Assembly (NCBI GenBank): GCA_944331915.1
Contig: CALVIR010000010.1
Span: forward strand, 1-35,598
Direction: 5' to 3'
DNA: 35,598 nucleotides
Source: an uncultured Bacilli bacterium
GTDB lineage: Bacteria; Bacillota_I; Bacilli_A; RF39; UBA660
Shown here: positions 3,992-31,749 of the stretch, piece after piece
Layout: each line of letters starts with the position of its first letter
Numbering within the stretch: the first letter of the stretch is position 1
Made by a program: the position numbers and the translations under genes
The notes under the pieces: generated by a model
Told to the model about the DNA's origin: nothing
The model's input: only the letters and a program-made list of their open reading frames with translations
Databases searched by the model: none

Positions 3992-4011
3992 ATTATTTCC
4001 CGGGAAATAAT
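3992..4011. promoter_or_regulatory. noc-box: Isolated Noc-binding-type palindrome (NBS)
   Basis: A perfect 20-bp palindrome contains ATTTCCCGGGAAAT at 3995-4008, identical to the Noc-binding consensus reported for B. subtilis and to the core of the seven island copies at 10.7-12.4 kb. It abuts the rsmI stop codon (4012) in the rsmI-pth gap. There is no U-tract, so it is not a normal terminator. Binding by the Noc-like protein encoded at 28605 is inferred. Confidence 0.8.
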
Positions 4012-10550: not shown

Positions 10551-10580
10551 CAAAAAAAAAGTGCACATAAATTAAATTTG
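10551..10580 (-). terminator. Intrinsic terminator formed by the SRP RNA 3' stem
   Basis: The 3' strand of the SRP RNA hairpin (ending GTGCAC on the minus strand) is followed at once by nine T residues (complement of 10552-10560). This is a typical way for this RNA to end. It also separates the RNA from tadA. Confidence 0.7.
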
Positions 10581-10633
10581 TTAAGGCTGCTATGTTTCCA
10601 TTCTGACCTGGTTCCAAACTAATTTATTGCACA
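10552..10633 (-). ncRNA. ffs: Small SRP RNA (4.5S-like)
   Basis: On the minus strand the conserved helix-8 region reads GGTCAG-AATGGAAACAT-AGCAGCC, the same length and layout as E. coli GGTCAG-N11-A-GCAGCC, with a GAAA tetraloop on an ATG/CAT stem. The flanks pair into one long hairpin: TGCA, ATAAATT and GTTTG on the 5' side with CAAAT, AATTTAT and TGCAC on the 3' side. A run of nine U ends the RNA, so it carries its own terminator. This gives about 80 nt, an Alu-less bacterial type. It should bind Ffh to target membrane proteins. Ends are estimated from the promoter and the U-tract. Confidence 0.9.
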
Positions 10634-10638
10634 AGAAA

Positions 10639-10698: not shown

Positions 10699-10722
10699 AA
10701 ATTATTTCCCGGGAAATAATTT
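10699..10722. promoter_or_regulatory. noc-box: Noc-binding-type palindrome 1 of island
   Basis: A perfect 24-bp palindrome with the core ATTTCCCGGGAAAT at 10704-10717. It is the left end of the NBS+parS module; parS follows at 10785. Confidence 0.88.
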
Positions 10723-10784
10723 ATTGGAAATTATACTGATAAAAATGGAAATTTATCAGTATATTTGACATTCGACAAGTATAA

Positions 10785-10800
10785 TGTTCCACGTGAAACA
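10785..10800. promoter_or_regulatory. parS: parS site 1
   Basis: TGTTCCACGTGAAACA is an exact match to the B. subtilis parS consensus TGTTNCACGTGAAACA bound by ParB/Spo0J. It lies 84 bp from the start of the 20-bp NBS at 10701, and the same spacing recurs in the second module. Confidence 0.95.
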
Positions 10801-10949
10801 TAGTCTATAATATTATATTTTCATATTAATGAATCTTATATCATCAACAACAACTCCAACTTATCGTTTTAAAACAAAAAAAGCAGTTCATTTGCACTAT
10901 AATCACAATTAAAAGTTAAAGAATAAATAATATTCAAAATAATCATAAT

Positions 10950-10987
10950 AATTACTAAATTATTTCCCGGGAAATAATTTAGTAATT
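10950..10987. promoter_or_regulatory. noc-box: Noc-binding-type palindrome 2, extended to 38 bp
   Basis: The core ATTTCCCGGGAAAT at 10962-10975 sits in a perfect 38-bp palindrome. The outer arms begin AATTACTAA and end TTAGTAATT, a flank found at no other site. There is no parS within 280 bp to its right and no U-tract. Confidence 0.88.
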
Positions 10988-11263
10988 TATCTAAAAAATA
11001 TTTTTTGTAATTATCTCATATAAAATAGAAACAACTAATATTTTTCCAAAACCTTTATTTTAACCAAAAAGAAATATACATTAATAAATACTTACAAAAA
11101 TCCAATTTATTAAAATAAAGGCATTTACTGTTTTAAGCTTCTATAAACTTTATAAAAAGGTTACACACTTTCTACCTAAATACCGTTATGTTTAATTAAA
11201 ATTTATAAAAACATCACATATTATAAAAAAGGTTTTATATAATATTTATTTTTACATTTATCA

Positions 11264-11287
11264 AAATTATTTCCCGGGAAATAATTT
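11264..11287. promoter_or_regulatory. noc-box: Noc-binding-type palindrome 3 of island
   Basis: A perfect 24-bp palindrome with the core ATTTCCCGGGAAAT at 11269-11282. It is the left end of the second copy of the NBS+parS module. Confidence 0.88.
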
Positions 11288-11349
11288 GCTGGAAATTTTA
11301 CTAGTAAAACTGGAAATATATCAGTATACTTGACATTCAACAAGTATAA

Positions 11350-11365
11350 TGTTCCACGTGAAACA
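11350..11365. promoter_or_regulatory. parS: parS site 2
   Basis: TGTTCCACGTGAAACA, identical to parS site 1 and again 84 bp from the start of the neighbouring NBS at 11266. Confidence 0.95.
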
Positions 11366-11509
11366 TAGTCTATAATATTATATTTCTATAACATTTTTCA
11401 TTCATCAACAAATTCATTCTTATGCAAGATTTATACTTAATGCATAAAATAATACAGTTATACTTATTCATAATCAAATTTAACAAAGAAATATATAAAA
11501 AGAGAGCTT

Positions 11510-11559
11510 TATAATTAGTAGTAAATTATTTCCCGGGAAATAATTTACTACTAATTATA
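11510..11559. promoter_or_regulatory. noc-box: Noc-binding-type palindrome 4, extended to 50 bp
   Basis: The core ATTTCCCGGGAAAT at 11528-11541 lies at the centre of a perfect, spacer-free 50-bp palindrome. The left arm starts TATAATTAGTAGTAA and the right arm ends with its exact complement. It is the longest dyad in the window. The flanking arm is unique to this site. Confidence 0.9.
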
Positions 11560-11602
11560 CCTTCTTCAAAAAATAGAATTTTTTTATATTACATGAATTT
11601 TA

Positions 11603-11618
11603 TGTTTCACGTGAAACA
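11603..11618. promoter_or_regulatory. parS: parS site 3
   Basis: TGTTTCACGTGAAACA, a fully palindromic parS matching the consensus, within an 18-bp dyad (11602-11619). It lies 78 bp from the start of the NBS at 11525. Confidence 0.95.
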
Positions 11619-11805
11619 TCCTATTTTATTAATGCTATATTAATTAATATAAAAAAATATCATTAGCTTTATATTTATAGATCTTATTATAAATTAATTT
11701 GCTATAAAAGAGACGTTTCTATACTAATTAAATTTTTTTTATTTCCATATTACTCTTTCTTATTACATAAAATATTTAATTATATTAAAAAACTCAATAC
11801 AACAA

Positions 11806-11837
11806 GAGAGAATTATTTCCCGGGAAATAATTCTCTC
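11806..11837. promoter_or_regulatory. noc-box: Noc-binding-type palindrome 5, extended to 32 bp
   Basis: The core ATTTCCCGGGAAAT at 11815-11828 is flanked by GAGAG on the left and CTCTC on the right, giving a 32-bp perfect palindrome. Confidence 0.88.
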
Positions 11838-11895
11838 CATTACAAAACTAACTTAAACATTACTAATTCATTTAAAATTAATGAAAATATAGAAA

Positions 11896-11925
11896 TGAGT
11901 TATGTTTCACGTGAAACATAACTCA
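11896..11925. promoter_or_regulatory. parS: parS site 4 within a 30-bp palindrome
   Basis: TGTTTCACGTGAAACA at 11903-11918 is a perfect parS. The dyad continues outward through TGAGTTA and TAACTCA to 30 bp. It lies 91 bp from the start of the NBS at 11812. Confidence 0.95.
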
Positions 11926-12093
11926 CAAATACAATAATTAAATAACTAAGGAAAATAATATTAATTGATACAATACTGCATTATATAGACTTTTAATTAT
12001 CATTTATTTTTTTTCAAAACATTAATATAATCCATAGCTGCAACTTATGTCAAGAATGTTGATATTTTTCCAATTATTCTGAAATTTTAACCA

Positions 12094-12121
12094 AAAAATT
12101 ATTTCCCGGGAAATAATTTTT
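12094..12121. promoter_or_regulatory. noc-box: Noc-binding-type palindrome 6
   Basis: The core ATTTCCCGGGAAAT at 12101-12114 lies within a 28-bp perfect palindrome with A/T-only flanks. No parS accompanies it. Confidence 0.87.
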
Positions 12122-12346
12122 CTGTTTTTTTAATAATTTTTACTAAAAACAAAACAATCAAATCAAAATAAAAACATAAAACAAGTACATATAATTTTAG
12201 TAAGCATGATAGTCAAATTACAAACAAACATAACTAAAATAATAGCAGTTATTCTATATTATTAAACAAATAGTAATTAATATTACTATATATTCAAATT
12301 TCAAAAAATATAATAAAGTTTTAAACAACAATTATATAATACATTA

Positions 12347-12376
12347 CTCAAATTATTTCCCGGGAAATAATTTGAG
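12347..12376. promoter_or_regulatory. noc-box: Noc-binding-type palindrome 7
   Basis: The core ATTTCCCGGGAAAT at 12355-12368 is flanked by CTCAA and TTGAG to make a 30-bp palindrome. It lies 12 bases beyond the gyrA terminator U-tract and has no parS partner. Confidence 0.87.
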
Positions 12377-28604: not shown

Positions 28605-29993
28605 ATGGATAATCGTGAAAACGAAGTTGTATATTTACATTTAGATGATATAATTCCAAATAGATTTCAACCACGACAAGTCTTTGATGAAAAAGCCTTA
28701 AAAGAGCTAGCAGTCTCAATCAAAGAGCATGGTGTTATTCAACCAATTATTGTTAGAAATATTGGTAATAAATATGAAATAATTGCTGGAGAACGTCGTT
28801 ATAAAGCCTCTGCTATGGCTGGACTTACCACTATTCCTGCTATTATTAGAAACCTAGATGATAAAGAAAGTAGTAAAGTTGCTTTATTAGAAAACTTACA
28901 ACGAAAGAATTTAAATCCTATAGAAGAAGCTAAAACCTATCAAAAAATACTAGAGTTAGATCAAATGACTCAAGAAGAACTAGCTAAAACTATGGGAAAA
29001 AGCCAAAGTGCTGTCGCTAATAAACTAAGACTTTTAGCCTTAACCCCAGAGGTTCAAGACGCTCTTTTAAAAGAACAAATTTCTGAACGTCATGCTAGGG
29101 CTTTATTGAATGCCCCTGATCCTGATACTCAGAAAGCACTTTTAAAAGAAGTTATAGCAAATAAAATGACAGTAAGAGAACTAGAAGAAAAACTTGCTCC
29201 TAAGAAAAACACTGAAATAACAAGTGAAGACTTTAATAACATTTTAAATCCAGCACCTGTTAATATTAATTCTAACAATACATCTAATCTTATCAAAGAT
29301 AGTAGTCTTAATAACGATTTTAATCAAAATGTGGGTATAGATTATTCAACCCCACCAAAATTTATTGATTATGGTATTCCAAGTGTTGGAGGTTCTTTGC
29401 AAAGTACTGCTGATAAACCAATTGATATTAACGAATTAAAACAAGAAGCGAAAGATATAAATATTGAACAGCCAAAACCTAATATGGATAGTTTTTTACA
29501 AGTAGGTCCTAAAGATAACGCTCCAAAAGAACAAGAAAATTCTAACTTTAAATTCTTTTCTCCATTTGAAGATACTCATGAGGAGAAGAAAGAAGCCCCT
29601 GATGCGAAATCTTTAGAGACTGCTTTTGATAATTTAAGTCCCTTTAGCTTAGGTGGGGAAACTAAGCCATTAGAAGATACTACCAGTACCTCTATGGATA
29701 ATCTTTTAGCAGGAGTTGAAAATAAACAAGATCAACCATCTTCTAATCCTCCATCTTTTGATGCTTTCAATAATCCTTTCGCTAAAAATCCCATTTTTCA
29801 AGACAATGTTCAATCTTTAACCCAAGCTCAAGTAAGCAAACCTAAATATACCTTAAATGAATCCATTAATATCGTAAGAGATAGTGTTAAAAAAATAGAA
29901 GAAAGTGGTTTCAAAGTAGATGTAGAAGAGATGGATTTTGCTAGTAACTATCAAATTGTAATTAAAATCTCTAAAGAGAATAACCCAAACTAA
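28605..29993 (+). CDS. noc: Noc-like ParB-family protein with a long low-complexity linker
   Basis: A ParB-family CTP-dependent clamp. The N-terminal domain (8-110) carries GERRYKA (62-68) and ENLQRKN (96-102), the CTP-binding motifs. The helix-turn-helix reads GKSQSAVANKLRLLAL...ISERHARAL, with Q134, K140 and R162 at positions that set Noc specificity. Position 145 is Ala where B. subtilis Noc has Lys. Unlike B. subtilis Noc, it has no N-terminal amphipathic helix: the ParB domain starts by residue 8. Residues 200-413 are Asn/Pro/acidic low-complexity with repeated short aromatic motifs (FFSPF, LSPF, FNNPF). A C-terminal domain (414-462) probably dimerises. Its position between rsmG and parA is that of noc. 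Candidate binding sites abound at 10.7-12.4 kb. Confidence 0.88.
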   Translation: MDNRENEVVYLHLDDIIPNRFQPRQVFDEKALKELAVSIKEHGVIQPIIVRNIGNKYEIIAGERRYKASAMAGLTTIPAIIRNLDDKESSKVALLENLQRKNLNPIEEAKTYQKILELDQMTQEELAKTMGKSQSAVANKLRLLALTPEVQDALLKEQISERHARALLNAPDPDTQKALLKEVIANKMTVRELEEKLAPKKNTEITSEDFNNILNPAPVNINSNNTSNLIKDSSLNNDFNQNVGIDYSTPPKFIDYGIPSVGGSLQSTADKPIDINELKQEAKDINIEQPKPNMDSFLQVGPKDNAPKEQENSNFKFFSPFEDTHEEKKEAPDAKSLETAFDNLSPFSLGGETKPLEDTTSTSMDNLLAGVENKQDQPSSNPPSFDAFNNPFAKNPIFQDNVQSLTQAQVSKPKYTLNESINIVRDSVKKIEESGFKVDVEEMDFASNYQIVIKISKENNPN

Positions 29994-30089: not shown

Positions 30090-30878
30090 ATGGCAAAGGT
30101 AATTTCTTTAGTAAATCAAAAAGGTGGAGTAGGAAAGACCACAACAAGTATTAACCTTTCTGCCTCTTTAGCATTCCTTGGCAAAAAAGTATTATTAATT
30201 GACCTAGATCCACAAGGTAATACTACAACAGGAGTAGGCATTAATAAAGCAGATATAAATTTAAGTATCTATGATGTTTTAACCAATAAATGTAGTACTA
30301 AAGAAGCAATGATAAAAACTAAATATAAGAAATTATATGTTCTACCAGCAACTATTAATTTAGCTGGTTTAGATATTGAACTATTAGAAAAAAGTCAAAG
30401 TGAAAAAGGCTTCGCTAAAGGAGCTCAATTGAAATATCATCTTGAAGAACTAAATGATGAAAACTTTGATTTTATCATTATAGACTGTCCACCTTCCTTA
30501 GGACTAATCACCACAAATGCTCTAACGGCAAGTGATTCTGTTATTATTCCTGTTCAATGTGAATTTTTTGCCTTAGAAGGAATAATGCAATTACTTAATA
30601 CGATAAGACTAGCTCAAAAACAATTAAATCCTAATCTAGACATTGAAGGAGTACTCTTAACTATGCTTGATTCAAGAACAAATCTTGGCTTTGAGGTAGT
30701 TGATGATATTAGAAAATTCTTTAAAGAAAAAGTTTATAATACCATTATTCCAAGATTAATTAGATTAACCGAAGCCCCTTCACATGGAGAGCCTATAATA
30801 GTTTATGATCCTAAAAGTAAAGGTTCAGAAGCCTATTTAAATTTAGCAAAGGAAGTGATTGATCGTAATGGAAAATAA
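30090..30878 (+). CDS. parA: Chromosome-partitioning ATPase ParA (Soj)
   Basis: A Walker-type ATPase that works with ParB on origin segregation and, in B. subtilis, regulates DnaA. It has the deviant Walker A KGGVGKTTTSIN with its signature lysine, the switch block DLDPQGNTTTG, and Walker B FIIIDCPPSLG. There is no N-terminal DNA-binding domain, as expected for the chromosomal small type. An in-frame GTG at 30081 is possible, but GAGAGTG ahead fits the ATG at 30090, giving 262 aa. It overlaps parB by 11 bases. Confidence 0.96.
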   Translation: MAKVISLVNQKGGVGKTTTSINLSASLAFLGKKVLLIDLDPQGNTTTGVGINKADINLSIYDVLTNKCSTKEAMIKTKYKKLYVLPATINLAGLDIELLEKSQSEKGFAKGAQLKYHLEELNDENFDFIIIDCPPSLGLITTNALTASDSVIIPVQCEFFALEGIMQLLNTIRLAQKQLNPNLDIEGVLLTMLDSRTNLGFEVVDDIRKFFKEKVYNTIIPRLIRLTEAPSHGEPIIVYDPKSKGSEAYLNLAKEVIDRNGK

Positions 30879-31749
30879 AAGAAAAGCCCTAGGTAGAGGG
30901 TTAGAAGAACTTTTTAGTAGTGAACCATTAGATATAGCTAAAGTGGAAGAAGAAATAATCAATAATACTCCTAAAGAACAAATTACAGAGATTAATCTTG
31001 ATGAATTGAGAAGTAACCCTTATCAACCTAGAAAAAACTTTGATGAAGAAAGCTTACAAGAACTAGCTTCATCTATTAAGACTTATGGTGTTTTTCAACC
31101 TATTATTGCTAAAAAAAGTATTAAAGGTTATGAAATTGTTGCTGGAGAACGTCGTGTTAAAGCCAGCCGCTTAGCAGGTCTTAAGACCATACCAGCTATT
31201 ATCAAAGAATTTACTGATGAAGAAATGATGGAGCTAGCTCTTCTTGAAAACCTTCAACGTGAAAATTTAAGTGCTCTTGAAGAGGCAGAAGCTTACTACA
31301 AACTAAAAGAAAAGCTAAATCTAACCCAAGAAGAATTAGCTGAAAAAGTAGGAAAATCAAGAAGTCATATAACAAATATGCTTGGTTTATTAGATTTACC
31401 AGCTGAGATTAAAGATGATATTATCAAAGGCGATTTAAGTATGGGGCATGCTAGAGTATTAAGTAAACTAGAAAATAAAGAGCAAGCCCTAACTTTAGCT
31501 GATAAAGTTATAAAAGAAAATTTAAGTGTTCGTAAACTAGAAGAATTAACCTCATCTCCCGAAGAATTTCACCGCAAAAAAGAAATTACGAAAAGAAAGC
31601 CTCTTGAAAATGAGTTTTCTTACTTAATAAATGATCTTGAAGAAAAACTTGATACCAAAGTAAGAATTAAGAATAATAAATTAGAAATAAGTTTTATTAA
31701 TGCAAATGATTTAAATCGTCTCCTAGAAATAATGCATTTAGATAAATAA
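30868..31749 (+). CDS. parB: Chromosome-partitioning protein ParB (Spo0J)
   Basis: This is the parS-binding CTPase clamp. The N-terminal KRKALGRGLEELF is the ParA-stimulating peptide. Further motifs are QPRKNF, GERRVKAS (93-100) and ENLQREN (127-133), then the helix-turn-helix GKSRSHITNMLGLL...LSMGHARVL. R165 and G193 are at the ParB-type positions, unlike Q and R in the Noc-like paralogue. The C-terminal dimerisation domain follows. The start is the ATG at 30868 (AAGGAAGTGAT upstream), inside the parA 3' end, so the pair is coupled. It should bind the four parS sites at 10.8-11.9 kb. Length 293 is typical. Confidence 0.96.
   Translation: MENKRKALGRGLEELFSSEPLDIAKVEEEIINNTPKEQITEINLDELRSNPYQPRKNFDEESLQELASSIKTYGVFQPIIAKKSIKGYEIVAGERRVKASRLAGLKTIPAIIKEFTDEEMMELALLENLQRENLSALEEAEAYYKLKEKLNLTQEELAEKVGKSRSHITNMLGLLDLPAEIKDDIIKGDLSMGHARVLSKLENKEQALTLADKVIKENLSVRKLEELTSSPEEFHRKKEITKRKPLENEFSYLINDLEEKLDTKVRIKNNKLEISFINANDLNRLLEIMHLDK

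Follow-up and report, generated by a model that had tools for sequence, protein, structure and literature searches.

A Noc orthologue with no N-terminal membrane helix, a motif-bearing linker, and origin-clustered putative binding sites in a family of Bacilli

Noc function is commonly attributed to membrane attachment and widely spread DNA sites, and the locus described here raises the question of what a Noc protein could do with neither of them. The locus lies in a 35,598-nt stretch of DNA from an uncultured Bacilli bacterium (contig CALVIR010000010.1 of the draft assembly GCA_944331915.1), referred to below as the window (Table 1). The host belongs to a large family whose members are uncultured bacteria of the gut. 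A sequence-only reading had proposed that its Noc-like product has no room for a membrane helix in front of the ParB domain and that short motifs in a low-complexity linker could replace this helix as membrane or partner contacts, or could promote condensate formation.

Gene order, phylogeny, DNA-contact residues, and the occurrence of cognate sites, all read from the sequence, identify the open reading frame as a Noc orthologue. Its surroundings have the gene order mnmE-mnmG-rsmG-noc-parA-parB, which is also the place of noc in B. subtilis. In the maximum-likelihood tree, the Nocs of the host family form one clade (99/90) within Noc, and Noc and ParB are split at 100/100 in a sampling that took in only 8 ParB rows. 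Pfam assigns ParB_N to residues 8 to 99 and HTH_ParB to residues 101 to 198. Three of the four DNA-contact residues (Q134, K140, and R162, with A145 being the one that differs) match the published Noc specificity set Q, K, K, R, which corresponds to Q173/K179/K184/R201 in the Caulobacter numbering and in which one of the two lysines suffices (PMC7383237). Foldseek comparison with the PDB matched the folded part of the protein to Noc/ParB, the closest solved structures being Geobacillus and B. subtilis Noc, and returned no match for the linker. The AF2 model, built with 51 sequences, is confident in the N-terminal, DNA-binding, and C-terminal parts, and the C-terminal dimerisation domain is kept across the family. 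The curated Noc model TIGR04285 scored 292 bits, below its cut-off of 315, and covered only profile positions 1 to 205 of 255, because the match stops at the start of the long linker. Given the tree, the synteny, the contacts, and this missed cut-off, we use the name Noc orthologue for the protein and do not present it as a proven factor of nucleoid occlusion. It differs from Spo0J/ParB in its Noc-type DNA contacts, its separate clade, and the absence of the ParA-binding, ParA-stimulating motif LG(K/R)GL from its N terminus.

Table 1. Coordinates of the features discussed in the text (window positions; residue numbers are those of Noc)
Feature	Coordinates	Strand	Remarks
eighth exact NBS	3995..4008		between pth and rsmI
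NBS array between tadA and gyrA	10704..12368		7 exact NBS; match search
parS sites (4)	10785..11918		at 10785, 11350, 11603, 11903; interleaved with NBS
dnaA	19861..21246	-	oriC placed here by GC skew
noc orthologue	28605..29993	+	462 aa, without N-terminal helix; Pfam, tree, synteny
ParB_N CTPase domain and HTH	28626..29198	+	residues 8-198; PF02195, PF17762
disordered acidic linker	29199..29840	+	residues 199-412; AF2 pLDDT mostly below 50
motif C0, GIDYSTPPKFIDY	29334..29372	+	residues 244-256; 31/33 exact in genus; I.YG enrichment
motif A, KPIDINELKQEAKDINI	29415..29465	+	residues 271-287; A.DI enrichment, AF2
motif B, NMDSFLQV	29481..29504	+	residues 293-300; ADLDSLLN consensus outside genus
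motif C, NFKFFSPFE	29544..29570	+	residues 314-322; family consensus (N/G/F)(K/R)FF(N/S)
genus-only motif STSMDNLLAGV	29685..29717	+	residues 361-371; 31/33 genus members, absent outside
genus-only motif FNNPFAKNPIF	29766..29798	+	residues 388-398; column conservation
C-terminal dimerisation domain	29841..29990	+	residues 413-462; AF2 helix-strand-strand, pLDDT about 80-93
parA (soj)	30093..30878	+	adjoins noc locus
parB (spo0J)	30868..31749	+	ParA-binding motif LGRGL; parS-type HTH (GKSR, GHAR)

The absence of the N-terminal helix, as well as the start of ParB_N at residue 8, held up on closer inspection. The ATG codon of noc is preceded by a good ribosome-binding site (AGAGGGG), and the frame upstream of it is open for 8 codons only (NKRIRGDN), so that no alternative start can add a helix and an upstream start giving Noc a membrane anchor is ruled out. 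The absence is clade-wide: about 140 Noc orthologues, representing some 75 genera of the host family, are without the helix. They comprise a first set of 58 with a readable start and 86 further loci, which include a few repeats of that set and come mostly from other genera; all start shortly before the conserved block PNxFQPR and show no amphipathic stretch at the N terminus. The sister family f6 has Nocs with MGLFDFLG N termini (L196 and L201), which makes helix loss within the host family the simpler reading. Such loss alone is not unique, since the short Nocs of several more distant families (f9, f13, and f19) are also without the helix; these differ from the Nocs studied here in having short linkers that lack the motifs described below. 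Across Bacilli, Noc N termini are highly variable (compare L196 and L201 of f6 with L202, L203, L205 to L209, L212, and L213 of f9, f13, and f19), and one protein from family f17 (L204, genome G203) combines a MALFNRKD N terminus with a very long acidic extension past the C-terminal domain in an open frame of 681 aa. Judged from its sequence, the host protein has retained the fold of the CTPase clamp, the dimerisation domain, and DNA contacts of the Noc type and is without the membrane helix. It shares with B. subtilis and S. aureus Noc the gene place, the ParB_N CTPase domain, the NBS-type HTH, the C-terminal dimerisation domain, and an identical NBS core, and differs from them, together with the rest of the family, in lacking the N-terminal amphipathic helix.

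Putative Noc-binding sites (NBS) were searched for with the core ATTTCCCGGGAAAT, which is the B. subtilis consensus and is assumed to apply here, so that divergent sites elsewhere would be missed. Exact matches number eight in the window and none elsewhere in the draft assembly (93% complete); at up to 2 mismatches, 0.08 sites would be expected in the window by chance, and the whole draft assembly has a single further match. Seven NBS (at positions 10704, 10962, 11269, 11528, 11815, 12101, and 12355) share the AT-rich 1.9 kb that separate tadA from gyrA with four parS sites, and a search allowing up to 1 mismatch found no other parS in the assembly. The sign of the GC skew changes at about 21 to 23 kb, beside dnaA/rnpA, which places the array about 8 to 11 kb and the eighth NBS about 17 kb from the switch; about 9 kb separate the array from dnaA, and all exact NBS are within about 17 kb of this gene. 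Cognate sites are thus present in the genome and, as judged from the draft, are not dispersed across much of the chromosome. Clustered origin-proximal sites are a feature of the Spo0J/ParB-parS system, and here both types of site are interleaved. Taking the predicted sites at face value, the main change from textbook Noc is the restriction of its DNA sites to the origin region. Such a position beside gyrAB, dnaN, and dnaA could mean that Noc on the array mainly restrains replication initiation and that the linker contacts the initiation machinery. S. aureus Noc does control initiation and spreads over 8 to 10 kb (PMC5540599), but none of the linker motifs could be matched to an initiation partner, and we consider this reading unlikely.

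The same layout recurs in the relatives. Of the genomes tested, 12 of 13 from the genus and 19 of 20 from the family contain NBS (1 to 13 each, clustered), and the NBS loci that were read lie within the mfd-pth-holB-recR-dnaX-tadA-gyrA segment beside dnaA. In G142, represented by a near-complete 1.257-Mb contig, the NBS span 6.4 kb and are located 17 to 23 kb from noc. The staphylococcus-like genomes (f11), unlike those of the host family, contain dispersed one-mismatch NBS. In two genera, represented by five genomes, neither noc nor NBS was detected; G166, the genome among these in which parS was looked for, has kept 4 parS sites. Five other noc-negative assemblies (G098, G109, G113, G145, and G159) still contain NBS with 0 or 1 mismatch; they are ambiguous because noc may be missing from the draft, and 4 of the 5 come from genera with noc-bearing members. 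In several congeners, NBS and parS alternate at near-constant spacing, with periods of 76, 105, 115, and 125 to 127 bp. It is conceivable, if still doubtful, that these alternating units form a dual centromere, loading two ParB-type clamps on one origin array, with the helix-less Noc as a second centromere-binding protein and its linker motifs docking the origin to a dedicated partner; if true, this would be a function not known for Noc. The loss of noc together with NBS while parS remains, as well as the regular NBS-parS tandem units, provides natural experiments on the divergence of ParB/parS from Noc/NBS and on the sharing of the origin.

The linker of B. subtilis and S. aureus Noc is short. 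That of the family measures between 72 and 502 aa (about 214 aa in this protein), carries motifs, and is otherwise poorly alignable. The Asn/Pro/acidic low-complexity character ascribed to residues 200 to 413 in the sequence-only reading agrees with the AF2 disorder profile and with the composition (12.5% Asn, 9.7% Pro, 15% Asp plus Glu, no Arg, net charge of -14). The motif positions given there, FFSPF at 317-321, LSPF at 344-347, FNNPF at 388-392, MDSFL at 294-298, and MDNLL at 364-368, were exact, and their conservation turned out to be uneven. MDSFL and FFSPF fall into the family-wide motifs B and C, respectively; MDNLL and FNNPF are conserved within the genus and absent outside it (mean column conservation in the genus is 0.89 for STSMDNLLAGV and 0.93 for FNNPFAxNPIF vs 0.55 over the remaining linker); LSPF as written occurs in this protein only, and its relatives have (D/N)PFNLG at this place. 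Two further elements had gone unlisted: motif C0 (GIDYSTPPKFIDY), the most conserved stretch of the linker, which reads PRFINYGE in other genera, and the helix motif IDINxIKxxAxDIN at residues 273 to 286, within motif A. AF2 predicts weak helices at residues 275 to 281 (motif A) and 294 to 298 (motif B). An unbiased count of gapped 3-residue patterns over 102 non-redundant linkers found A.DI in 48 (4.3 expected), D.LL in 42 (4.6 expected), KFF in 31 (1.8 expected), RFF in 11 (0.2 expected), I.YG in 21 (0.5 expected), and YF..P in 19 (0.7 expected). Co-occurring motifs keep a single order, A (DIxxIKxxAxDIN), B (DxDxLL), and C [(N/G/F)(K/R)FF(N/S)], although the set is incomplete in some members and the shortest linkers are devoid of some or all motifs. 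The A/B/C module is not known from any other protein, and no partner was found.

This conservation bears on whether the family simply carries out ordinary nucleoid occlusion with fewer sites, in which case one origin cluster would be enough and the linker would be a flexible spacer or a condensate-promoting tail. The small genomes (1.0 to 1.6 Mb) would fit such an arrangement, as would the observation that B. subtilis Noc condenses and that its condensates recruit FtsZ to the membrane (PMC9606368). On the other side, ordered motifs are retained across about 75 genera in linkers whose other parts turn over, B. subtilis Noc condenses without a comparable linker (PMC9606368), and B. subtilis Noc devoid of the membrane helix is non-functional (PMC4331003), which makes ordinary occlusion improbable here.

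The suggestion that the linker motifs replace the helix as membrane or partner contacts gains from the clade-wide absence of the helix and from the conservation of MDSFL and FFSPF in orthologues, so that for these two motifs neither of the refuting conditions named in the sequence-only reading applies. Its membrane part, as worded there, is not supported: LSPF is private to this protein, MDNLL and FNNPF do not extend beyond the genus, and a search of the linker for a positively charged amphipathic helix found none. The windows around KFF have a mean net charge of -1.3 and an amphipathicity of 0.36, compared with 0.30 for their own shuffles. The helix of B. subtilis Noc is flanked by positive charges, and its phenylalanines or charges have been mutated in order to disrupt it (PMC4331003). 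For the net-negative, barely amphipathic motif C, direct membrane binding is therefore not favored over the alternative, and a protein partner of the linker appears more likely. Nevertheless, motif C could be a relocated anchor, i.e., the lost N-terminal membrane sequence, through which clustered Noc would bind the membrane by avidity and anchor the origin. Its KFF(N/S)xxE/D pattern resembles the membrane helices at the C terminus of FtsA (NKFFGHFFEN) and the N terminus of SepF (DKFKKFFNGEEE) of the host family; (K/R)FF is strongly enriched in the linkers, KFF being sometimes present in two copies; the B. subtilis residues mutated in the helix tests were K2, F5, R7, F8, and F9, and that helix is weak and can be substituted by a foreign one (PMC4331003). 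Besides the charge and the near-random amphipathicity of the KFF windows, however, FFS is followed by Pro in the genus and the linker of this protein contains no arginine, so that we regard a relocated anchor as rather unlikely. As for the division proteins themselves, FtsA ends in NKFFGHFFEN or similar, and the C-terminal peptide of FtsZ is DYDFPPFLRDKNF in the genus and mostly DIPxFLR in the other genera of the family (L086 to L097 and L214 to L243). Mimicry of the FtsZ peptide by FFSPF was considered; the genus FtsZ tail shares only x-P-F with it, and no claim is made.

The role of Noc in this family, with its lost anchor, motif-bearing linker, and origin-clustered sites, is probably not that of textbook Noc. 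The reading that we favor, and find somewhat more likely than not, is that this orthologue has turned into an origin- or centromere-restricted DNA clamp whose linker motifs would recruit a partner. Noc would load on the NBS array in a CTP-dependent manner and spread locally beside ParB, giving one origin-proximal body; the linker motifs, displayed in many copies, would bind a partner, most likely a segregation, division, or envelope protein; and the origin region would be tethered, positioned, or licensed, instead of the whole nucleoid being covered. The retention of Noc and of the exact site by a whole family that has dropped both membrane attachment and widely spread sites suggests that the core function is separable from these features. 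In the part of the literature that was searched, neither the helix-less long-linker variant nor NBS-parS arrays nor any Noc from this lineage was found to be described.

The array region has some further peculiarities. The gene for the bacterial small SRP RNA (RF00169, 53 bits; positions 10552-10638, minus strand) is located directly beside it. The extended conserved NBS core is AATTATTTCCCGGGAAATAATT. The NBS at 10962, 11528, 11815, 12101, and 12355, as well as the parS at 11903, are within unusually long perfect palindromes; those of the NBS have half-arms of 14 to 25 bases (a 50-bp palindrome surrounds 11528), and the arm sequences differ from site to site. Such palindromes could possibly reflect palindrome-driven growth of the array or form cruciforms.
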